NCBI RefSeq assembly: GCF_018449545.1
Contig: NZ_JAAVUR010000014.1
Coordinates: 62,001 to 126,000, forward strand
Source: Granulicella sp. dw_53
GTDB lineage: Bacteria; Acidobacteriota; Terriglobia; Terriglobales; Acidobacteriaceae
DNA: 64,000 nucleotides
Direction: 5' to 3'
This document shows positions 11,251-22,505 of this stretch, piece by piece. The translations under genes and the position numbers were made by a program. The notes beneath the pieces are model-generated. The model did not search any database, was not told the DNA's origin, and was given only the letters and a program-made list of their open reading frames with translations. The stretch's first letter is position 1, and each line of letters begins with the position of its first letter.

Positions 11251-11429
11251 GATGGTCCGGCATGACGATGCTAGCAGAGGGGCAAACGATGCGGGATTGA
11301 GTTGTGGATACAGGAGGTGTTGATCGCGGAGGAGCGAAGTGAGTTTGCGGCGGCGTTGTTGCGAGGTTGGCGTTAGACTTAAAGAGAACGGGCATGCAAG
11401 CGGACTGCGGTGCCAGAAGGACGGACGAC

Positions 11430-12140
11430 GTGAAGCGAATGGCGCTGGTAATTGTGCTAATGGTGGTGGGGATCTCACTGATGCTATGGGCGGGTTGGCA
11501 TAATCTGCGGGAGCGGAAGCTGGCGATGCAGAGGGCGCAGGAGAACAAGATGGTGCTGGTCCCGGAGCAGGGTGGAGCGACGGTGAGTCCAGGTGAGGGT
11601 GACGGACCAAAGATGACGGGCAAGGCGGCGCCGGGATTTACCCTGGTGAGTCTGGATGGGAAGAAGGTGTCGCTGAGCGACTATAAAGGCCGGCCTGTGC
11701 TGGTGAACTTCTGGGCGACGTGGTGTGGGCCGTGCAAGGTGGAGATGCCGTGGTTCGAGGAGCTGCGGAAGCAGTATGCAGGGCAGGGGCTTGAGATACT
11801 CGGTTTGGCAGATGATGTGGACGCCGGCAAAGAGGCGATCACCAAGGTAGCGACGAGGGCCGGGGTGACGTATCCGATCCTCCTGACGGACGGCAAGGTA
11901 CAGACGGCATACGGCGGCCTGGATGTGCTGCCTATGTCGTTCTACGTGGATAAGAACGGTGTGGTGGTGGTGCAGACGGCCGGGCTTGGGACGAAGGACG
12001 ATATCGAAGCGAATATCAAAAAGACGATCGCATCTGGCGGAGCTCCGAGCGAACCGAAGAAGATGCAGATGAGTTCCGTTCCATCTTTGTCCGGTGAAGG
12101 CAAGACCGCGATGAAGACGGTTGGGACGGGTGCTCTGTGA
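11430..12140 (+). CDS. TlpA-like membrane-anchored thioredoxin
   Basis: A periplasm-facing thiol-disulfide oxidoreductase. The 236-residue protein has an N-terminal membrane anchor (MALVIVLMVVGISLMLWAG) and an AhpC/TlpA fold with FWATWCGPCK (redox cysteines near residues 99 and 102) and the cis-proline in DVLPMSF. GTG 11430 has AGAAGGA eight bases upstream; TTG 11367 and ATG 11394 are weaker alternatives. Its stop overlaps the next gene's GTG start (GTGA), so the two are translationally coupled. A role in keeping periplasmic cysteines reduced, for example during cytochrome c or CuA assembly, is inference. Confidence 0.88.
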   Translation: MKRMALVIVLMVVGISLMLWAGWHNLRERKLAMQRAQENKMVLVPEQGGATVSPGEGDGPKMTGKAAPGFTLVSLDGKKVSLSDYKGRPVLVNFWATWCGPCKVEMPWFEELRKQYAGQGLEILGLADDVDAGKEAITKVATRAGVTYPILLTDGKVQTAYGGLDVLPMSFYVDKNGVVVVQTAGLGTKDDIEANIKKTIASGGAPSEPKKMQMSSVPSLSGEGKTAMKTVGTGAL

Positions 12141-12634
12141 GGCTGGCTGGGGGTTTTCTGGCGGGCGTCGCTTTGAGTTCGACGTTCCTTGGATCTGGAA
12201 TTGGGTCTGCGCAGCAGTTGGACGGAGTGCCTGCGAAGCCGAAGGGCTACGTGATCTACGCGGCTGAACCCCAGGTGATCAAGGCGGGGAGGCCCAGTGT
12301 GTTGGAGCTGCGCTTCCAGGTGCGGGAGGGATTTCATGTGAACTCACATACTCCGAAGTCTGAGCTGCTGATTCCTACGGCCTTGAAGCTACAGCCGGTG
12401 GATGGAATCAAAGCCGCGGAGATTGCGTATCCGGCGGGCACGCCGTATAGCTTCAGTTTTGAGCCGAACGAGAAGCTCGATGTGTATACGGGGAACTTTA
12501 TTGTGAAGGTACCGGTTGTAGCTGTAGCCGGCGAACATACATTGGATGGATCGTTGCGATATCAGGCTTGTGATAATGCGGCTTGCTATCCGCCGAAGAC
12601 GCTGCCGGTTCAGGTGGTCTTTACGGCGAAGTAG
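12137..12634 (+). CDS. DsbD-alpha-like periplasmic thiol protein
   Basis: A 165-residue exported protein with a signal peptide ending near SAQQ. Its body resembles the N-terminal (alpha) domain of the thiol:disulfide interchange protein DsbD, including the paired cysteines in QACDNAACYPPK. The central eight-helix membrane domain and C-terminal thioredoxin of DsbD are absent. The adjacent TlpA gene, joined by a GTGA overlap, may be its redox partner, although an electron-passing membrane protein is not encoded nearby. Start GTG 12137. The domain call is good; the partner assignment is inference. Confidence 0.8.
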   Translation: MRLAGGFLAGVALSSTFLGSGIGSAQQLDGVPAKPKGYVIYAAEPQVIKAGRPSVLELRFQVREGFHVNSHTPKSELLIPTALKLQPVDGIKAAEIAYPAGTPYSFSFEPNEKLDVYTGNFIVKVPVVAVAGEHTLDGSLRYQACDNAACYPPKTLPVQVVFTAK

Positions 12635-14445: not shown

Positions 14446-15450
14446 ATGTCTACGCATAGGATAGGGAGTTGCCTCGCCGCAAGCATTCCATTCGACTCAG
14501 CTCATGGGTCGACTAGTGTCTTTTCGCCGGCTGCAACACCTGCGCACGCCATCTATAGCTTGTCGATGTTAGTGCTCAGCATCACGGCCGCTATCTTTCT
14601 AGTGGTAGCTGGGTTACTGGTCTATGTTCTTATTCGCTACCGGAGCCGGGCTTCGGATACAGAAGAGCCGACGCAGATCTACGGGAGTAATCAGATTGAG
14701 CTCTCCTGGACTGTCATTCCAATTTTGATTGTGGTGATGCTCTTTCTCGCCACGGCTCGTGTCATATTCGCCACGGAGAGCGCCCCGAAGCCGGTCTCAG
14801 CGATGGATGTTACAGTGATCGGCCATCAGTTCTGGTGGGAGTATCGTTATCCTGGGTTTGGTGTTGTCACTGCAAATGAACTGCATATTCCAGTGAGCGA
14901 TCCGCAACATCCGACTCCGACTTACTTGACGATGTCGTCTGCCGATACCGATCACAGCTTCTGGATCCCTCGTCTCGCAGGCAAGATGGATTTGATCCCA
15001 AATAAGATCAATACGATGTGGATCGATCCGCCGGCAACTGGCCTTTACCTCGGGCAGTGCGCACAGTATTGCGGTACGCAGCATGCCAAGATGTTGCTGC
15101 GCGTCTACGCCGATAGTCCCACGGATTTCGCGGCATGGATCAAGCATCAACAGCAGCCGGCTGAAGAGAACGCCGCGGTCGCGGAGGGGCGGACCGTCTT
15201 TCAGCACAACGCTTGTATCAGTTGCCATTCCGTGGCGGGCACTGTCGCGACTGGCCGGTTCGGGCCTGATCTGACGCACGTCGCAAGTCGAGACACAATC
15301 GCCTCTGGAGCAATCGTCAATACACCCGCGAACGTTCGCGACTTTGTGAGCGATCCATCGCACCTCAAACCCGGGGCGCTGATGCCCCCGATGCATTTGA
15401 ACGATCACGATCTTGATGCTGTCACTGCTTATCTGATGACTCTCAAGTAG
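14446..15450 (+). CDS. coxB: Cytochrome c oxidase subunit II with fused cytochrome c (caa3 type)
   Basis: It accepts electrons from a c-type cytochrome and passes them to subunit I. The 334-residue protein has two membrane helices (residues ~38-60 and ~83-105) and a cupredoxin domain with CuA ligands at His170, Cys205, Cys209, His213 and Met216 (CAQYCGTQHAKM). A C-terminal cytochrome c domain has CISCH at residue 257 and a distal methionine in GALMPPM. The fused heme domain defines a caa3-type oxidase. It is the first gene of the operon, with coxA 19 bp downstream. Confidence 0.95.
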   Translation: MSTHRIGSCLAASIPFDSAHGSTSVFSPAATPAHAIYSLSMLVLSITAAIFLVVAGLLVYVLIRYRSRASDTEEPTQIYGSNQIELSWTVIPILIVVMLFLATARVIFATESAPKPVSAMDVTVIGHQFWWEYRYPGFGVVTANELHIPVSDPQHPTPTYLTMSSADTDHSFWIPRLAGKMDLIPNKINTMWIDPPATGLYLGQCAQYCGTQHAKMLLRVYADSPTDFAAWIKHQQQPAEENAAVAEGRTVFQHNACISCHSVAGTVATGRFGPDLTHVASRDTIASGAIVNTPANVRDFVSDPSHLKPGALMPPMHLNDHDLDAVTAYLMTLK

Positions 15451-15469
15451 AGATTGGAAACGGAACCTT

Positions 15470-17158
15470 ATGGCAACTCAAACTCCGGTGACCGCAATCC
15501 TTGATAAGACGCCAGCGTCCCCGCCGCGACGTCTACTGTTTCAAGTTCTGCATGATTGGCTGACAACGCTCGATCATAAGAAGATCGGCCTGATGTACAT
15601 CGTCTATGCGCTGATCTTCCTGGTGATCGGTGGCCTTGAGGCCGTGCTGATGCGCATCCAGCTCGCGATTCCGAACAACCACTTCGTTTCGCCAGAGACC
15701 TTCAACCGGTTGTTCACCATGCATGGCACGACGATGGTCTTCTTCGTCGGTATGCCGATCCTATTCGGCTTCGGCAACTATCTCATCCCACTTATGATTG
15801 GCGCGCGCGATATGGCGTTCCCGCGCCTGAACGCTTTCAGCTTCTGGATATCGGCGTTTGGTGGCACTCTTCTTTATTTCAGCTATGTCGGCGGCAGTGG
15901 ATTGTATGGAGCGGGCAGCGCGCCTGACGTTGGCTGGTTTGCCTATGCTCCACTTACCGCTCACGTCTTCTCACCTGGCCATAGTACGGATTACTGGACG
16001 CTCGCAGTGCTGCTTAGCGGCGTTGGGACTGTAGGAACGGCTGTAAACATTGTCGCAACGACTCTCTGCATGCGCTGCCCCGGAATGAAGTTGAGCCGCA
16101 TGCCGTTGCTGGTCTGGCTCTACCTAATTACTTCGTTCATGGTCTTTGTGACCATCAGCCCATTGACCGCTGCACAGATCATGCTCATGCTGGACCGCTA
16201 CGTCGGATCGCACTTCTTCGACACGCAGGCCGGCGGGTCCGCTGTGCTCTGGATGCATTTCTTCTGGATCTTCGGGCATCCCGAAGTTTATATTCTCGTT
16301 CTTCCGGCGTTCGCATTCGCCAACGAGATCATCCCGGTATTTTCCCGCAAGGCGATCTTCGGCTATCCGGCGATGGCCGCGGCTTCGGTCTGCATCGGCT
16401 TTATCAGCCTGAGCGTCTGGGCGCATCACATGTTTACGGTAGGGATGGGGCCGGGAGCGAACACCTTTTTCACGCTGTCTACGATGATCATCTCGGTACC
16501 CACGGGTATTAAGATTTTTAACTGGTTAGCCACGTTGTGGGGAGGCAAGATTCAGTTCACCACTGCGATGCTGTTTGCGATCGGCTTTCTCTTTCAGTTT
16601 CTGATTGCGGGCCTCACCGGCATCATGCTCTCCGTATCGCCTTTCAACTGGCAGTTGAGCGCCTCTTACTTTGTGATCGCGCACTTCCACTATGTGCTGG
16701 TGGGCGCGATTCTCTTCATGATCTTTTCGGCCTTTTACTACTGGTATCCAAAGATAACGGGCCGCATGCTGAATGAGAGGCTTGGCAAGTGGCACTTCTG
16801 GCTCTTCCTCATTGGCTTCCATCTTACGTTCGACTTCATGCATATTCCTGGCCTGCTGGGGATGCCGCGGCGCGTCTACACCTATGAGGCGGATCGCGGT
16901 TGGATGATGTGGAACATGATCGTGTCGAGTGGAGCGATCGTCCAGACGGCAGGGACTCTTCTCTTCGTCTTCAATATGGTCCGATCCTATTTCAAGGGAG
17001 CTATCGCAGGAGCCGATCCGTGGGATGCGTGGACGCTGGAGTGGTCGACGACCTCGCCACCGCCGGAGTATAACTTCGCGGTTACTCCGAGTGTCGCTAG
17101 CCGACGTCCACTGTGGGACCTGAAGCATCCGGAAGATCCGGACGGTAACTATGAGTAA
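15470..17158 (+). CDS. coxA: Cytochrome c oxidase subunit I (A1-type heme-copper oxidase)
   Basis: The catalytic subunit reduces oxygen to water and pumps protons. The 562-residue protein has twelve expected helices. MHGTTMVF holds a heme a ligand (His85). GHPEVY near residue 268 holds a CuB histidine, the cross-linked tyrosine and the A1-type D-channel glutamate. HHMFTVG holds the other CuB histidines. PTGIKIFNW carries the K-channel lysine, and HFHYVL holds the high-spin and low-spin heme histidines. NYLIPLMIGARDMAFPRLN carries the D-channel entry aspartate. The C-terminus ends without the fused subunit III seen in some caa3 oxidases. Confidence 0.97.
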   Translation: MATQTPVTAILDKTPASPPRRLLFQVLHDWLTTLDHKKIGLMYIVYALIFLVIGGLEAVLMRIQLAIPNNHFVSPETFNRLFTMHGTTMVFFVGMPILFGFGNYLIPLMIGARDMAFPRLNAFSFWISAFGGTLLYFSYVGGSGLYGAGSAPDVGWFAYAPLTAHVFSPGHSTDYWTLAVLLSGVGTVGTAVNIVATTLCMRCPGMKLSRMPLLVWLYLITSFMVFVTISPLTAAQIMLMLDRYVGSHFFDTQAGGSAVLWMHFFWIFGHPEVYILVLPAFAFANEIIPVFSRKAIFGYPAMAAASVCIGFISLSVWAHHMFTVGMGPGANTFFTLSTMIISVPTGIKIFNWLATLWGGKIQFTTAMLFAIGFLFQFLIAGLTGIMLSVSPFNWQLSASYFVIAHFHYVLVGAILFMIFSAFYYWYPKITGRMLNERLGKWHFWLFLIGFHLTFDFMHIPGLLGMPRRVYTYEADRGWMMWNMIVSSGAIVQTAGTLLFVFNMVRSYFKGAIAGADPWDAWTLEWSTTSPPPEYNFAVTPSVASRRPLWDLKHPEDPDGNYE

Positions 17159-17173
17159 AGAGGGTAAGTCTTC

Positions 17174-17770
17174 ATGAGCGAAACAGCCGTCATTCCTCAT
17201 AGTCCGACCGAAGTCTGGAAGTTGCCATCGCGCGGCATCGTGGCGATGGCTTGTCTCATCCTGGCCGAGTCTGCGATTTTTATTATCTTTGTTGTGGCTT
17301 ACGTCTTCTATATCGGCAAGAGCGTAAGCGGACCGACGCCGCGTGAGGTTCTTGAGCTTCCTATCTTCAGCTCTATCTGTCTGCTGTCGAGCAGCCTGAC
17401 TGTGCACTTTGCGGTCTCTGCGTTGCACGATAGCAAGCGGGGGATGTGTTCGCTCTGGCTCGGACTCACTGTTCTGCTTGGCGGCATCTTTCTGGCTGCT
17501 ACGGCGCGTGAGTGGTATCAGCTTATCTATCATGATGGACTCACGATCAAGACCAATCTCTTTGGGACGACGTATTACTCGCTGGTAGGTCTGCATGCGA
17601 CTCACGTCGTGGTTGGTCTCTTCATGCTTTCGCTTGCTCTCCTCTTCTCGTTGCGAGGGGGGCTGACAAGCAATCACACGGAACGGTTGGAAGTGCTGTC
17701 ACTCTATTGGCACTTCGTCGATGCAGTGTGGATCGTCGTCTTTCTTGTTGTCTATGTGTTGGGAAGATAG
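17174..17770 (+). CDS. coxC: Cytochrome c oxidase subunit III
   Basis: An integral membrane subunit of 198 residues with about five helices, including the conserved core SLVGLHATHVVVGLFML and the terminal LSLYWHFVDAVWIVVF. The short length matches bacterial caa3/SoxM subunit III rather than the seven-helix mitochondrial form. It lies 15 bp after coxA and 24 bp before the next gene. It probably stabilises subunit I. Confidence 0.93.
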   Translation: MSETAVIPHSPTEVWKLPSRGIVAMACLILAESAIFIIFVVAYVFYIGKSVSGPTPREVLELPIFSSICLLSSSLTVHFAVSALHDSKRGMCSLWLGLTVLLGGIFLAATAREWYQLIYHDGLTIKTNLFGTTYYSLVGLHATHVVVGLFMLSLALLFSLRGGLTSNHTERLEVLSLYWHFVDAVWIVVFLVVYVLGR

Positions 17771-17794
17771 ATCCTGGATATTAAAGGAGGCATC

Positions 17795-18667
17795 ATGCAA
17801 AACGATCACCGGAGCGACGAAGCGCATGTGATACAGCTTCCTGCGCCGACTGCGTGGCCTATGATTCTGGCCCTCGGCGTCTCGCTCATCCTGGCGGGCA
17901 TGGTGACGCATCTTGTGGTCGGATTGCTGGGACTGGTGCTTACAGTTGCCGGCGGCCTCGGTTGGTTCTTTCAAGTGCTCCCACATGAGGCGCACGAGTC
18001 TGTTGCTGTTCGTACGGAAGAGGTCCAAATCGTCAGCAGGCGCACTTTGAGTGAGCGAGAGGCTCTCGCTGTGACACACCGGAAGATCCTGCCAGTCGAG
18101 ACCTTTCACATCACTACGGGGATCAAGGGAGGCATCGCGGGTGGCATTGCGATGACGATTCCTGCGGCGCTCTTCAGCATTTTGCGATATCACAGCATCT
18201 GGTACGCGATGAACCTGCTTGCTGCAGGAGGCTTTATCAGTTGGGCGGGAGCGAGCGATGCATTTCTGAGTGAGTTTCACTTGCAGGGCTTTCTGGCGGC
18301 GCTCGCCATCCACGGACTCACCTCGCTTCTGGTTGGGCTCTTGTATGGCGCGATGCTGCCTATGTTTCCGAGATATCCGATCCTTACGGCGGGCTTTATA
18401 TCGCCTTTGCTGTTTACCGGGATTCTCCACTCAGCACTCAACATTCTTAGTCCGATTCTGAATCAACGCATCGACTGGTTCTGGTTTGTTCTCTCGCAGA
18501 TTGCGTTTGGTCTGGTCTGCGGCTTCGTGGTGAATCTGCAGGTCAAGGTTCGAACCCCACAGTTCCAGGCGCTGCCGTTCGCTATACGAGCGGGAATTCA
18601 TAGCGATCTGACTGAGAGGACCTACGACGAGGCGAGACATTCGGACGAGAGGGACAGTCCCAAATGA
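17795..18667 (+). CDS. Membrane protein: subunit IV-like N-terminus plus unknown multi-helix domain
   Basis: A 290-residue membrane protein with a strong ribosome site (AAAGGAGG). Residues 1-55 (PTAWPMILALGVSLILAG followed by a second helix and GWFFQVLPHE) resemble the two-helix oxidase subunit IV found in actinobacterial and caa3-type enzymes. The rest, from about residue 105, has roughly four or five further helices (ITTGIKGGIAGGIAM, LLAAGGFISWAGA, IHGLTSLLVGLLYGAML, WFWFVLSQIAFGLVCG) that I do not recognise. The coupling to coxC and to the diheme cytochrome gene (ATGA overlap) suggests a structural or assembly role. Confidence 0.7.
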   Translation: MQNDHRSDEAHVIQLPAPTAWPMILALGVSLILAGMVTHLVVGLLGLVLTVAGGLGWFFQVLPHEAHESVAVRTEEVQIVSRRTLSEREALAVTHRKILPVETFHITTGIKGGIAGGIAMTIPAALFSILRYHSIWYAMNLLAAGGFISWAGASDAFLSEFHLQGFLAALAIHGLTSLLVGLLYGAMLPMFPRYPILTAGFISPLLFTGILHSALNILSPILNQRIDWFWFVLSQIAFGLVCGFVVNLQVKVRTPQFQALPFAIRAGIHSDLTERTYDEARHSDERDSPK

Positions 18668-19407
18668 ATATTCGCTCCCTCATGTATTCGCTTTTGGCTT
18701 GCTCCCTGTTACTTGCTAACGTGGGTTGCCTCAGCGCGCCTGGAAAGCCAAAGGCAGAGTCGGAAGGTGGGCGTCCGGACGACGTCCACGACTTTGCAAC
18801 TCTCTATGGTCAAAATTGTGCCGCTTGCCATGGGGACAAGGGCAAGAATGGGGCCGCTATCTCGCTGGCTAATCCTGTTTATCTCGCGATCGCGGACGTT
18901 TCTAATCTTCGACGCGTTATCAGCAGCGGCGTTCCAGGAACGATGATGCCTCCTTTTGGCAAGAGCGTTGGTGGGATGTTGACCGATCAGCAGATTGGCG
19001 ATCTGGCTCAGGGAATGATGAAGGCTTGGGGAAGTCCGGCGGCTCTCTCTGGCCAGACGGCGCCGGCGTATGCGGGTCATGCTCCGGGCGATCCGGTGCA
19101 GGGACAGAAGAGCTTTGCGGTCTTCTGTGCGCGATGCCATGGCGAGAGTGGCGAAGGAGTTAGCAAGGACAAGCTTCGTACGGGGTCGCTGGTCGATCCT
19201 GCGTATCTCGCGCTGGTCAGCGAGCAGGGATTGCGCAGTATCGTCATCGCCGGCGAACCGGATCAGGGAATGCCGGATTGGCGCTCTGACCTAACGGGCT
19301 CTGGCGCTCGAGCGATGACGGACCAAGAGGTAACCGATACTGTTGCATGGCTTGTCTCGCATCGGGTTGCGAACCCAGGCCAGCCTTATCAGCAACGGCA
19401 TCCTTAG
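18664..19407 (+). CDS. Diheme cytochrome c lipoprotein
   Basis: A periplasmic electron carrier of 247 residues. The signal peptide ends in a lipobox, LANVGC, so the protein is probably anchored by lipid. Two class I cytochrome c domains carry CAACH (Cys52) and CARCH (Cys155), each with a later methionine ligand (GTMMPPF and QGMPDW). It overlaps the preceding gene by ATGA and lies directly before the Rieske gene. It is well placed to carry electrons from the Rieske/cytochrome b unit to the CuA/heme c domain of CoxB. Confidence 0.92.
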   Translation: MNIRSLMYSLLACSLLLANVGCLSAPGKPKAESEGGRPDDVHDFATLYGQNCAACHGDKGKNGAAISLANPVYLAIADVSNLRRVISSGVPGTMMPPFGKSVGGMLTDQQIGDLAQGMMKAWGSPAALSGQTAPAYAGHAPGDPVQGQKSFAVFCARCHGESGEGVSKDKLRTGSLVDPAYLALVSEQGLRSIVIAGEPDQGMPDWRSDLTGSGARAMTDQEVTDTVAWLVSHRVANPGQPYQQRHP

Positions 19408-19433
19408 ATTGGACCAAAGATGTGGAGAGACGG

Positions 19434-20072
19434 ATGAGTGAACTTCTCAAGTACCCTGGCGAGTCCAGCAACGACGATCTACCACCAGAGGGTAAGGCGG
19501 CTGCGCACTCGCGCCGAACTTTTCTCTTCAAGCTTTCGGTCATGCTGAATGTCGTGGTCGGGAGTGTGCTGGGCGTTCCTTTAGTGGGTTACTTGTTAGG
19601 ACCGGCGAGGAAGAAGAGCTCAGATGTCGGCTCGTGGGTCAGCCTCGGATCGACCAGCGGTTTTCCGGTTGGAGAGACGCGTCTCGTAGACTTTCAAAGT
19701 CCGGTTTCGAGTCTTGGCGATGGCGAAACCGCCAAGGTCGCGGCCTGGGTTCGGCGGATCTCCGCGCAGCAGTTTCAGGTCTTTGCGGTCAACTGCGCGC
19801 ATCTGGGTTGCCCAGTGCGATGGTTCGCACAGTCAAAGCTGTTTATGTGCCCTTGCCACGGCGGCGCTTACTATGAGGATGGGGCGAGGGCTTCAGGGCC
19901 TCCGGAGCGGGGGCTCTTTGAGTATCGCTATAAGGTCGATGGCGATTCTCTGGTCATCCACGCGGGCGATATGCCGACGCTTGCAACGCAGGCCTCATGT
20001 GGCAAGAAGCCTTTGATCCAGATCGAGCCTGCTGCAGCCGACGAGACGAGGACTACTCCATGGCAAGCCTAA
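19434..20072 (+). CDS. Rieske iron-sulfur protein of the quinol:cytochrome c reductase
   Basis: It takes electrons from quinol at the Qo site. The 212-residue protein has a Tat-like N-terminal anchor (SRRTFLFKLSVMLNVVVGSV) and a Rieske fold with the cluster ligands in CAHLGC (Cys121, His123) and CPCHGG (Cys139, His142). ATG 19434 has GGAGAG nearby. A longer frame from 19347 would overlap the cytochrome c gene by 61 bp and add unconserved residues. The cytochrome b gene starts 13 bp before this gene ends, so the two are tightly coupled. Confidence 0.93.
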   Translation: MSELLKYPGESSNDDLPPEGKAAAHSRRTFLFKLSVMLNVVVGSVLGVPLVGYLLGPARKKSSDVGSWVSLGSTSGFPVGETRLVDFQSPVSSLGDGETAKVAAWVRRISAQQFQVFAVNCAHLGCPVRWFAQSKLFMCPCHGGAYYEDGARASGPPERGLFEYRYKVDGDSLVIHAGDMPTLATQASCGKKPLIQIEPAAADETRTTPWQA

Positions 20073-21604
20073 AGCAGCGCGGTGTTTCGGTTGTGCTGAA
20101 GGGCTATGAATGGCTCGAGCACCGGCTCGGCCTGATCAAGCCGATAGCGACGGCAGCGGGGCATCCGACGCCTTCCAACAATGCCAGTTGGTGGTATGTC
20201 TTTGGAAGCGCCGCGAGTGTGTTGCTTGTGCTGCAGGTTGTGACCGGCATCCTGTTGGCTCTTGTTTATAGCCCATCTGCGAACGAGGCCTGGGGAAGTT
20301 TGCAGTTGCTGAACCACAACGTGGCGTTGGGCTGGTATCTGCGTGCGCTGCATGGCTGGGGCTCGGACTTCATGATTGCCATCGTGCTGATCCACATGGT
20401 GCAGGTCTTCCTCTTTGGCTCCTTCAAGTTTCCCCGCGAGCTGACCTGGATCATCGGCGTTGTGCTGCTTCTTCTGACGCTCGGCATGGCCTTCACTGGG
20501 CAGGTGATGCGATTTGACCAGGATGCTTACTGGGGCCTTGGCATCGGGGCTTCGATTATGAGCCGCATCCCGTTCATTGGGGCTCCGCTGGTTCACCTTA
20601 TGTTGGGAAGTCCCATCATTGGCGGCGCTACGTTGTCGCGGTTCTTTACGCTGCATGTCTTCGTCATTCCAGGCATGCTGTTGGCTGGAGTCGGCTTGCA
20701 CATCTGGATGACTCTTCTGCATGGCGTCAGCGAGTGGCCGATGCCGGGACGGATTGTCAGCAAGGCGACCTACGAGCGCGAGTATCACGAGATGACGGAG
20801 AAGACGGGCATTCCTTTCGTTCCGGACGCGGCGTGGAAGGATGCGGTCTTTGCTGCCTCGATTCTCTTCGCGGTCATGGCCTGCGCGTTCTTCTTTGGAC
20901 CCTTTGGACCGGGGGGACCGCCCGATCCGACGATCATTCAGACGGCTCCCAAGCCGGACTTTGCCTTCCTCTGGATCTATGCGGTGCTTGCCTTTCTTCC
21001 GCCGTCGATCGAGACGCCGGTCATGCTGGTGGTTCCTGTGCTCGCCATTGCGGGCATGTTGCTTCTGCCTCTGATTATGGGGGAGGGAGAACGTCACTGG
21101 GCGCGGCGTCCGGTGGCGGTGCTGATGGTCTCGGTCATCGCGGTATCGCTTGGCATCTTTACGCATCTCGGGACGTATACGCCGTGGAGTCCGATCATGA
21201 ACGCCTGGACGAGCGATGCGATTCCGGCGAAGTATCTGCAGGGCCGTAGTCCGCTGGAGCGGCAAGGCGCGCTGGTGCTGCAGAACAAGCAGTGCCGCAA
21301 CTGTCACGTTCTCGATGGAGCGGGCGGCCAGCGCGGTCCGTCGCTGGATGCGGTTGCTTCGCTCCTGACGGAGGATCAGATCATCCGGCAGCTGCTGCAG
21401 GGCGGCGGCAATATGCCTGCTTACGGCAATGCGCTTAATCCTTCCGAGACGAAGGCTCTCATGCAATTTCTTATGACGCTGCGTGGCAATGACCTTGCTC
21501 CGGCGGTGGATGCGTCGCGCAGCCTGGTGCATGCGGATCAGCAGTCTGCTCCTGTTGCTCCCGCGCCTCCTGCTGCTTCTGCGCCGGATGGGAAGACTCC
21601 CTAA
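20060..21604 (+). CDS. Cytochrome b of the bc complex with C-terminal fused cytochrome c
   Basis: The quinol-oxidising membrane subunit. The 514-residue protein has the b6-like helices with heme histidines (LRALHGWGSDFMIAIVLIHM and FTLHVFVIPGMLLAGVGLHI). Subunit IV-like helices follow, and a cytochrome c domain carries CRNCH at Cys412 with a methionine in GGGNMPAYG. The Qo-site ef-loop, usually PEWY, reads PDFA near residue 299. The N-terminus HPTPSNNASWWYVFG is typical of menaquinol-type enzymes. With the Rieske gene and the oxidase in one operon it can form a bcc-caa3-like chain. Confidence 0.93.
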   Translation: MASLKQRGVSVVLKGYEWLEHRLGLIKPIATAAGHPTPSNNASWWYVFGSAASVLLVLQVVTGILLALVYSPSANEAWGSLQLLNHNVALGWYLRALHGWGSDFMIAIVLIHMVQVFLFGSFKFPRELTWIIGVVLLLLTLGMAFTGQVMRFDQDAYWGLGIGASIMSRIPFIGAPLVHLMLGSPIIGGATLSRFFTLHVFVIPGMLLAGVGLHIWMTLLHGVSEWPMPGRIVSKATYEREYHEMTEKTGIPFVPDAAWKDAVFAASILFAVMACAFFFGPFGPGGPPDPTIIQTAPKPDFAFLWIYAVLAFLPPSIETPVMLVVPVLAIAGMLLLPLIMGEGERHWARRPVAVLMVSVIAVSLGIFTHLGTYTPWSPIMNAWTSDAIPAKYLQGRSPLERQGALVLQNKQCRNCHVLDGAGGQRGPSLDAVASLLTEDQIIRQLLQGGGNMPAYGNALNPSETKALMQFLMTLRGNDLAPAVDASRSLVHADQQSAPVAPAPPAASAPDGKTP

Positions 21605-21607
21605 AGC

Positions 21608-22456
21608 ATGGCCGATCCTGTAAACGAGATGCTTGCAGACTGGTCTCTTCCGGTCTGGCTCACGCTATCGATTGCAATTACTGCGATCGTCTATGTGCGC
21701 GGCTGGATGGCTCTGCGACGGACTCGCGCTGCGCAGTTCGACGAGGTTCGACTTGCATCCTTTCTTTCAGGCCTCGGAGTTCTGTGGCTGGCGATCGGTT
21801 CGCCGATGGATGAGTTTGCCGATGCGCTGTTGAGTGCGCATATGGTCGAACATCTGCTGATCATGTCGGCTGTCCCGCCGCTTTTGCTCTATGGCTTGCC
21901 GGTGGTTCCACTGTTGCGAGGAGTTCCGCTGGGGTTGCGGCGTTCCGTGCTCGGTCCGCTGCTTCGACTGACGTTCTTGCGCAGGCTGGGACATTGGCTG
22001 GTTACGCCGGTCGTCGCGTGGCTTGCCATGAATCTTATGTACCTTGGGTGGCATGTTCCGGCGGCCTATGACTTCGCTCTGGAGCATGAGGGGTGGCATG
22101 CGGTGGAGCATCTGTGTTTTCTCAGCACTTCTCTTCTGTTCTGGTGGTGCATTCTGCGGCCTTGGCCTGCTCCGGCTCACCCCCAGAGCTGGGGTATTCT
22201 GATCTACCTGGTTGCGGCGGATATTGTGAACACCTTGCTCTCGGCCTTTTTGGCGTTTTGCGGGAGACCGGTGTATGGGTTTTATCTGGACCATCCCAAT
22301 CCGTTTCAGATCGCGCCTCTCGATGACCAGGTGTTTGGGGCTTCGATCATGTGGGTTTTTGGGTCGATGGTGTTTCTGGTGCCTGCCGTTGTGGTCACTT
22401 TGCGGTTGATGGGGCCTAGTGGACGGCGGCCGGTTTATGGGAAGGTTCCTTTGTAG
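21608..22456 (+). CDS. ctaG: CtaG-family oxidase assembly protein (caa3_CtaG)
   Basis: A membrane protein of 282 residues, about seven helices, of the caa3-type CtaG family needed for making active caa3 oxidase in Bacillus. Conserved features include HMVEHLLIMSAVPPLLLYG, NLMYLGWHVPAAYDFAL and WHAVEHLCFLSTSLLFWW, whose histidines suggest copper or heme handling. It follows cytochrome b by 3 bp and ends the operon, with a terminator-like hairpin just after. This is not the Cox11-type CtaG. Confidence 0.9.
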   Translation: MADPVNEMLADWSLPVWLTLSIAITAIVYVRGWMALRRTRAAQFDEVRLASFLSGLGVLWLAIGSPMDEFADALLSAHMVEHLLIMSAVPPLLLYGLPVVPLLRGVPLGLRRSVLGPLLRLTFLRRLGHWLVTPVVAWLAMNLMYLGWHVPAAYDFALEHEGWHAVEHLCFLSTSLLFWWCILRPWPAPAHPQSWGILIYLVAADIVNTLLSAFLAFCGRPVYGFYLDHPNPFQIAPLDDQVFGASIMWVFGSMVFLVPAVVVTLRLMGPSGRRPVYGKVPL

Positions 22457-22472: not shown

Positions 22473-22505
22473 GGGGCTAATGCCCCTTTGGGGTGGTTTT
22501 TTTCG
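22473..22505 (+). terminator. Terminator-like hairpin after ctaG
   Basis: GGGGC-TAAT-GCCCC, with an alternative CCCC-TTT-GGGG pairing, is followed by a run of seven T (22497-22503). Competing stems make the fold uncertain, but its position at the operon end fits termination. Confidence 0.5.

Follow-up and report, generated by a model that had tools for sequence, protein, structure and literature searches.

The genes for quinol oxidation and for oxygen reduction have already been reported side by side in acidobacteria. Trojan et al. 2021 (PMC8407424) describe strains in which A1 caa3 oxidase genes lie upstream of bc1 genes, an arrangement called the bc1-A1 caa3 superoperon, and suggest that the products form supercomplexes; strain KBS 83 expresses this superoperon down to nanomolar O2. 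As far as the sections of PMC8361435 on subunit III go, the Mycobacterium smegmatis equivalent of this subunit is made of CtaE and CtaF, which mediate contact with complex III, and the subunit III of Flavobacterium johnsoniae lacks helices 1-2. Here we analyze a locus of the acidobacterial type, located at positions 14446-22456 of a 64,000-nucleotide stretch of Granulicella sp. dw_53 (contig NZ_JAAVUR010000014.1; the window). We consider it probable that the locus is an eight-gene Acidobacteriaceae superoperon that encodes a complete quinol-to-O2 relay, consisting of a bcc-like complex and an A1 caa3 oxidase, that a 290-amino-acid membrane protein (u290) is a subunit of the oxidase, and that the two enzymes form a supercomplex.

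The locus agrees with the published superoperon (PMC8407424) in that the A1 oxidase genes are directly upstream of the bc1 genes and in the Glu of a GHPEV motif. The strains of that study include Edaphobacter sp. TAA 166, and one of the related loci described below (L042) comes from 'Acidobacteriaceae bacterium TAA 166'. The layout and the idea of a supercomplex are therefore already published. The text of PMC8407424 consulted here makes no mention of the 290-amino-acid protein, of subunit III being split, of the number of hemes, or of the Qo motif. Neither u290 nor a relocated subunit III hairpin was found in the literature searched, which did not extend to the graphical and supplementary material of PMC8407424, which may depict the gene. 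These two features appear to be new here, and we do not claim that the PDFA form of the Qo motif discussed below is unreported. The features of the locus are as follows.

14446..15450, + strand: coxB, oxidase subunit II of the caa3 type, with a CuA domain and a C-terminal heme c domain (PF02790, PF00116, PF00034; CoxB equivalog TIGR02866 above cut-off)
15470..17158, + strand: coxA, heme-copper oxidase subunit I of the A1 type (GHPEVY) without a C-terminal hairpin extension (PF00115, E=1.3e-155; TIGR02891 above cut-off)
17174..17770, + strand: coxC, short five-helix subunit III (COX3 model at positions 121-257 only; five hydrophobic segments)
17795..18667, + strand: u290, 290-amino-acid membrane protein with an N-terminal hairpin like COX3 helices I-II (residues ~10-65) followed by a four-helix domain (residues ~100-260) without an assigned fold
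18664..19407, + strand: diheme c-type cytochrome, lipoprotein-like (Cys22), with two Cytochrome_CBB3 stretches
19434..20072, + strand: Rieske iron-sulfur protein with one transmembrane segment (PF00355; alternative in-frame ATG at 19347)
20060..21604, + strand: cytochrome b with a fused C-terminal heme c (PF00033, PF13631, PF13442; alternative in-frame ATG at 19997)
21608..22456, + strand: ctaG, caa3 oxidase assembly factor (PF09678, E=2.2e-56; TIGR02737 equivalog below cut-off, 67.6 versus 279 bits)
22481..22502, + strand: terminator-like hairpin and T-run directly 3' of ctaG (consensus scan only)

The eight genes are compact, and Pfam and NCBIfam models name all of them but u290, for which no model of either collection was matched by the window protein at E ≤ 0.001. 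Gaps of 19, 15, and 24 nucleotides separate coxB from coxA, coxA from coxC, and coxC from u290, and u290 overlaps the diheme gene by 4. With starts at 19434 for the Rieske gene and 20060 for the cytochrome b gene, the diheme and Rieske genes are 26 nucleotides apart, the Rieske and cytochrome b genes overlap by 13, and ctaG follows after 3. A sequence-only reading of this DNA had described the seven named genes as consecutive, with overlaps or very short gaps; the order, the strand, and the tight spacing hold, and the continuity does not, as u290 (17795-18667) lies between coxC and the diheme gene. A gap of 548 nucleotides precedes coxB. The terminator scan returned 15 terminator-like sites in comparison to 10.6 expected, so only the position of the hairpin behind ctaG deserves notice. 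Long open reading frames on the minus strand opposite the superoperon were regarded as artifacts of base composition.

To place the locus among its relatives, a sequence scan was carried out with the cytochrome b-c protein, a search that finds close relatives only, and the best 80 of 271 confirmed loci were retained. Nearly all of these carry names from the Acidobacteria, many of them Granulicella or Edaphobacter. In 67 of the 80, all eight genes occur with their order and strand unchanged. Twelve of the remaining 13 end at a contig edge; the sole incomplete locus without this explanation is L061, which lacks ctaG 3' of the cytochrome b-c gene (after 10452). With conserved counterparts for all eight genes, chance or miscalled genes are ruled out. 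For the upstream tlpA, dsbD, and aminotransferase genes and the downstream SnoaL and MoxR-like genes of the window, nothing scored above 40 bits in the DNA examined around the other clusters, and the module is thus delimited as coxB to ctaG; the TlpA and DsbD-like genes, considered as a part of it, were rejected on these grounds.

A sample of 297 acidobacterial genomes was surveyed to determine the phylogenetic spread of the module. Orthologs of CoxA (at least 68% identity) occur as 17 copies in 16 of the genomes, all of the window's family, and the next-best CoxA match is at 48%. The u290 protein (E < 1e-100) is likewise found as 17 copies, in exactly those 16 genomes, and the other matches to it at E ≤ 0.001 are three weak ones confined to the hairpin region. 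Cytochrome b-c orthologs (at least 62% identity) are present in the same 16 genomes and in one genome of another family (G188), whose 6.6-kb contig begins within the diheme gene; the match with the next-highest score has 35% identity. Five sampled members of the genus Granulicella have neither u290 nor the orthologous CoxA.

The genomes of Edaphobacter modestus and of E. aggregans DSM 19364 both contain the entire superoperon in two highly divergent copies (L044/L091 and L076/L079). In these two genomes, the nearest neighbor of each subunit groups with those of its companions, and exceptions appear among the second and third neighbors (coxC and u290 of L079, ctaG of L091). Across 68 clusters, pairwise distances correlate between subunits at 0.69-0.93. 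These data fit a superoperon that has been inherited as one unit, with the proviso that any vertically inherited block would also correlate.

The oxidase half of the locus has the features of a caa3 cytochrome c oxidase, namely a subunit II that has CuA ligands as well as a heme c domain. The CuA ligands and the heme Met of CoxB are conserved in 69 aligned sequences, barring a single gap, which falls on the first His. Gln takes the place of the CuA Glu in 67 of the 69, a replacement that is tolerated at this site. The CoxA of the window has a conserved GHPEVY motif and the other three CoxA proteins of the genome have YSHPAV, motifs that we take to mark A1 and A2 oxidases, respectively. In all 73 CoxA sequences, the C-terminus falls 10-27 residues past the last KHP. 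CoxC has five hydrophobic segments in 64 of 73 sequences (the remaining nine count 3, 4, or 6) and scores 86 bits with the curated aa3_CtaE model, the cut-off of which is 190. CtaG, encoded at the end of the operon, presumably has a role in copper insertion.

The quinol-oxidizing half has conserved cofactor sites as well. The cytochrome b-c fusion keeps all four heme b His, together with the heme c Met, in 81 of 81 sequences, and 14 residues lie between the two His of the second heme b pair, the spacing seen in b6. The Rieske ligands are present as CPCHGG in 79 of 79 sequences and as CAHxxC in 78 of 79. Thus, the heme b His and the Rieske ligands are those of canonical bc1 and b6f complexes, and the PEWY form of the Qo motif is absent. 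The residues that align with PEWY in the bc1 cytochrome b structure 1zrt_C begin with PD in all 81 sequences, most often as PDFA (37), PDFF (17), or PDYF (10). The corresponding motif is PDFY in M. smegmatis and PDVY in Corynebacterium glutamicum, according to the text consulted in PMC8361435, and the second residue of the motif has been correlated with redox potential and quinone species in the portion of PMC9162462 that deals with it. Menaquinol as the substrate of the b complex would be the natural inference from this motif.

Four c-type hemes had been proposed for the locus, and all four motifs were recovered: CISCH in CoxB, CAACH and CARCH in the diheme protein, and CRNCH in the cytochrome b fusion. 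The count is stable across the relatives (window included), with one motif in 69 of 69 CoxB sequences, one in 81 of 81 cytochrome b sequences, and two in 74 of 78 diheme sequences. Of the other diheme rows, three contain three motifs, one of these (L032) being a spurious match to another gene, and one contains a single motif. Cys22, the putative lipid attachment site of the diheme protein, is found in 76 of 78 sequences. The lipobox consensus restricts the residue at -3, and the Asn at this position makes the lipobox of the window protein atypical. Among NCBIfam models, the diheme protein scores best with that for actinobacterial QcrC (NF050122), with an E value of 4.9e-10 and 39.1 bits versus a cut-off of 200. 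The operon-like cluster is accordingly supported as a complete relay from quinol to O2 in which each of its c hemes is tethered, and it is conserved as a unit.

The remaining gene encodes u290. Two alignments of this family were used: A1, which consists of 60 of 75 relatives and the window protein, and A2, which consists of 53 of the 61 rows of A1. An AlphaFold model of u290 (mean predicted local distance difference test (pLDDT) score of 85, predicted template modeling (pTM) score of 0.60) has a hairpin at residues 21-61 and four long helices between residues 106 and 250. When the family profile was compared to PDB sequences, five chains were returned at E ≤ 10, all of them COX3 (best E 0.0012) and all pairing the u290 hairpin with COX3 residues ~2-71. 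The oxidase subunit IV family PF12270 matches the hairpin in 54 of 61 members (best 6e-6); its curated cut-off of 26.9 was not reached by any of ten relatives scanned singly, the best of which scored 25.9. A third line of evidence comes from the three weak u290 matches in other acidobacteria, which are C-terminal CoxA tails. A profile of eight such tails, taken from sister caa3 operons (L197-L204) and leaving out L205 (a more distant CoxA with a hydrophobic tail), L206-L208, and L211, was aligned by hhalign to u290 residues 10-60 with a probability of 96, an E value of 4.8e-9, and 31% identity. For six other superoperon families, the hhalign probability with u290 was at most 2.4. The u290 profile alone detects the hairpin in four of the eight tails (L197, L198, L201, and L204).

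Structure alignments superimpose u290 residues ~5-68 on COX3 residues ~2-70 and also on the hairpin of subunit IV from C. glutamicum and Mycobacterium tuberculosis. After realignment of the Foldseek list, oxidase subunit III accounts for 25 of the 50 rows listed, aligned within the first 91 residues, and 7q21_F (Z 5.5) and 8hcr_H (Z 5.2) correspond to the C-terminal hairpin of actinobacterial subunit IV; the subunit identity of these chains is our assumption from entry title and chain length. The pattern P-T-W-P...G...G...GW is exact in 63 of 76 u290 sequences. Taken together, the u290 hairpin appears to resemble helices I-II of oxidase subunit III. These are the two subunit III helices that would otherwise be missing, because CoxC covers only COX3 121-257 and CoxA ends near its KHP. 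This complementarity, as read from the protein sequences, is the strongest point in favor of the hairpin assignment. The short CoxC, the tail-less CoxA, and the u290 hairpin together make subunit III look split, like the mycobacterial CtaE/CtaF. The possibility that u290 as a whole is a degenerate COX3 was rejected since no profile alignment with the CoxC family was obtained (hhalign probability 0.2).

The four-helix part of u290 was also examined separately. It has no match among PDB sequences at E ≤ 10, and its own AlphaFold model (pLDDT 89.7, pTM 0.84) has no Foldseek match at E ≤ 0.001 and a best realigned Z of 4.5, an absence that does not show a new fold. DUF6789 (PF20587), a complex III-associated family, weakly matches the u290 C-terminus in 5 of 53 members, with E values of up to 8.2e-6. 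Its cut-off was not reached, the u290 of G139 scoring 21.9 versus 27.1 bits, and no DUF6789 match was found in the window's genome at E ≤ 0.001. Given these weak matches and the fact that only one of seven examined DUF6789 loci is beside a Rieske/cytochrome b pair, we did not adopt this assignment. The one locus (G026, L149 206-2501) encodes a weak DUF6789-match protein directly 3' of a Rieske/cytochrome b-c pair, which the other six do not.

The sequence-only reading had likened the locus to the actinobacterial bcc-aa3 supercomplex, a comparison that is right in part. In common with the M. smegmatis, C. glutamicum, and M. tuberculosis systems are a split subunit III (a likeness, not orthology), the Asp at the second Qo position, and a diheme c protein. 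Unlike them, the superoperon has heme c domains fused to both CoxB and cytochrome b, its diheme protein is lipoprotein-like, and its CtaF-like hairpin is extended by a four-helix domain. Its Rieske protein has one hydrophobic segment, whereas the actinobacterial type has three transmembrane helices. The curated actinobacterial models also fall short, with QcrB (NF050120) at 108.6 versus 500 bits and QcrC as given above. In Bacillus, a bcc complex with a c domain fused on the cytochrome b side occurs together with a caa3 oxidase. Our locus likewise has one heme c fused in the bc complex and another on subunit II; the c domain of the Bacillus bc complex is on a separate subunit IV, while here it is joined to a full-length cytochrome b.

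Within the acidobacteria, the nearest CoxA relatives (45-48% identity) are encoded by the eight sister caa3 operons introduced above. All eight have the order coxB-coxA-coxC-ctaG, and GHPEVY is present in the two checked. Unlike in the superoperon, CoxA itself ends in the helix I-II-like hairpin in these operons. The DNA examined around them gave no match to u290, Rieske, or cytochrome b, and a one-heme cytochrome gene is located just 5' of six of the eight. A different pairing, which represents the second superoperon type of acidobacteria, is seen in the genome of the window, where genes for an alternative complex III of the NrfD type precede those for an A2 caa3 oxidase (contig C53, L095 5257-18883). 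This cluster resembles the superoperon in that complex III genes adjoin caa3 genes and differs from it in the type of complex III and in its A2 CoxA.

Based on the subunit identities, the cofactor ligands, the conserved gene order, and the co-occurrence of u290 with the oxidase in the sampled genomes, all of which can be read in the sequences directly, the following route is proposed. Quinol, probably menaquinol, would be oxidized at the PDFA-type Qo site. One electron would pass from the Rieske center to the tethered c hemes (the heme fused to cytochrome b and those of the diheme lipoprotein), then to the heme c of CoxB, and from there through CuA and heme a to the a3-CuB center; the other would be recycled across the two b hemes in a Q cycle, and the A1 oxidase would pump protons. 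The u290 hairpin would replace helices I-II absent from the five-helix CoxC, leaving subunit III split as in CtaE/CtaF, and u290 would be positioned at or near the contact of the two enzymes in a supercomplex. On the sequence data, u290 is most likely an oxidase subunit. A stable supercomplex of complexes III and IV is our likeliest reading, one that the split subunit III and the co-occurrence make somewhat favored. We put forward more tentatively that u290 is itself the bridge, in which case the hairpin would have left the CoxA tail and become fused to a new four-helix membrane domain, and the protein would dock the cytochrome b complex onto the A1 oxidase. The result would be a bcc-caa3 supercomplex with an unbroken series of four c hemes, evolved independently of its actinobacterial counterpart.

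Several observations weigh against these proposals. For u290, the single window sequence has no PDB sequence match at E ≤ 1 and reaches only E 0.03 (14.8 bits) with the PF12270 hairpin model; since single u290 sequences match weakly, the likeness of the hairpin rests on profiles. DUF7541 (32 of 61 members, best 4.9e-6) and the NCBIfam model for the morphological protein SCO2097 (23 of 61, best 6.2e-4) also match the hairpin, which is therefore not specific to one model. A Foldseek search with the u290 model returned nothing at E ≤ 0.001 (best COX3, E 0.62), and unrelated chains rival COX3 at Z values that are modest throughout, with a transhydrogenase at Z 5.8 on the hairpin and FtsX at Z 6.0 on the other half. 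For the relay, the second ligand Met of the diheme protein (residue 203) is present in just 51 of 78 aligned sequences. The others have Ala, Val, His, or further residues, and no obvious substitute was seen in 12 rows viewed; the second heme may be differently ligated or variable in its role. The genome contains 28 Cyt_CBB3-type matches, 24 of them outside the superoperon and several in stop-to-stop frames of 111-180 amino acids. Lastly, in the RNA-seq data published in PMC8407424, the ctaC (coxB) transcript is above the rest of the superoperon.

Of the alternatives, a different order of the c hemes survives best. The diheme lipoprotein could be the c1-like (QcrC-like) partner, with the b-fused heme c peripheral, or the reverse could be true; we regard this as evenly balanced with the order given above, and it is compatible with the preferred explanation. 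Its far-below-cut-off QcrC match speaks for the diheme protein as that partner, and the invariance of the fused heme c and its Met in 81 sequences speaks for the fusion. Both readings use the same parts, and the present data do not order the hemes.

Less likely, though it deserves serious weight, is that the two enzymes are separate, are co-transcribed for stoichiometry only, and exchange electrons through a diffusible c-type cytochrome without forming a stable supercomplex. The small Cyt_CBB3-type frames outside the superoperon could supply such a carrier, and the sister caa3 operons, with a one-heme cytochrome gene in front of most of them and no cytochrome b or Rieske match nearby, are consistent with an oxidase that works in this way. 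Mycobacteria are reported to have no soluble cytochrome c, and this strongest argument used for the actinobacteria may not carry over to a genome that contains small c-type cytochromes. However, with four c hemes tethered there is less need for a carrier, the two modules co-occur in every sampled genome where the available DNA permits the check, and the split subunit III resembles that of supercomplex-forming oxidases. The weakest alternative, which we consider improbable, is that u290, like CtaG, serves in assembly or insertion and is no structural subunit, its hydrophobic hairpin being coincidental: the weak single-protein, family-model, and fold matches would agree with this, as would its lower conservation than CoxA and the presence of CtaG, an assembly factor, in the same operon, but the COX3, CoxA-tail, and actinobacterial subunit IV comparisons converge on the same 50 residues (although non-independently, as all use the same u290 family), the Pro-Thr-Trp-Pro and Gly pattern is kept exactly in most sequences, and the hairpin supplies precisely the two helices that CoxC and the CoxA tail lack.

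The superoperon is one of several routes to O2 in this genome, as indicated by a second Rieske/cytochrome b-c pair (contig C4), the alternative complex III, and three A2 CoxA proteins, two of which are encoded by further genes beyond that of the C53 cluster. The second pair (L093 3389-9098) lies 3' of two genes, one with ten CxxCH motifs and the other for a 748-amino-acid protein, with a small cytochrome c nearby, and possibly serves a different electron route. In two loci of the same family (L150 7985-10705 and L159 6573-9326), cytochrome b frames of 907-918 amino acids with four CxxCH motifs adjoin a Rieske gene. Upstream of the superoperon, window positions 11367-12634 encode a TlpA/ResA-like thioredoxin and a short protein, possibly for cytochrome or copper maturation; the short protein was read by eye as presumably a DsbD N-terminal domain.

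With u290 in place, a published observation on gene order becomes a testable structural claim. Subunit III is the place where oxidase and complex III meet in the bacterial supercomplexes described in the consulted text of PMC8361435, and its helices I-II vary between partners. In the superoperon, these helices are apparently on a separate, lineage-specific protein that was seen only with this oxidase and cytochrome b in the 297 sampled genomes. If u290 is indeed the joint, it would represent an independent way of coupling complex III to complex IV, in a phylum that is abundant in soil and in an enzyme type that is reported (PMC8407424) to be expressed at nanomolar O2.

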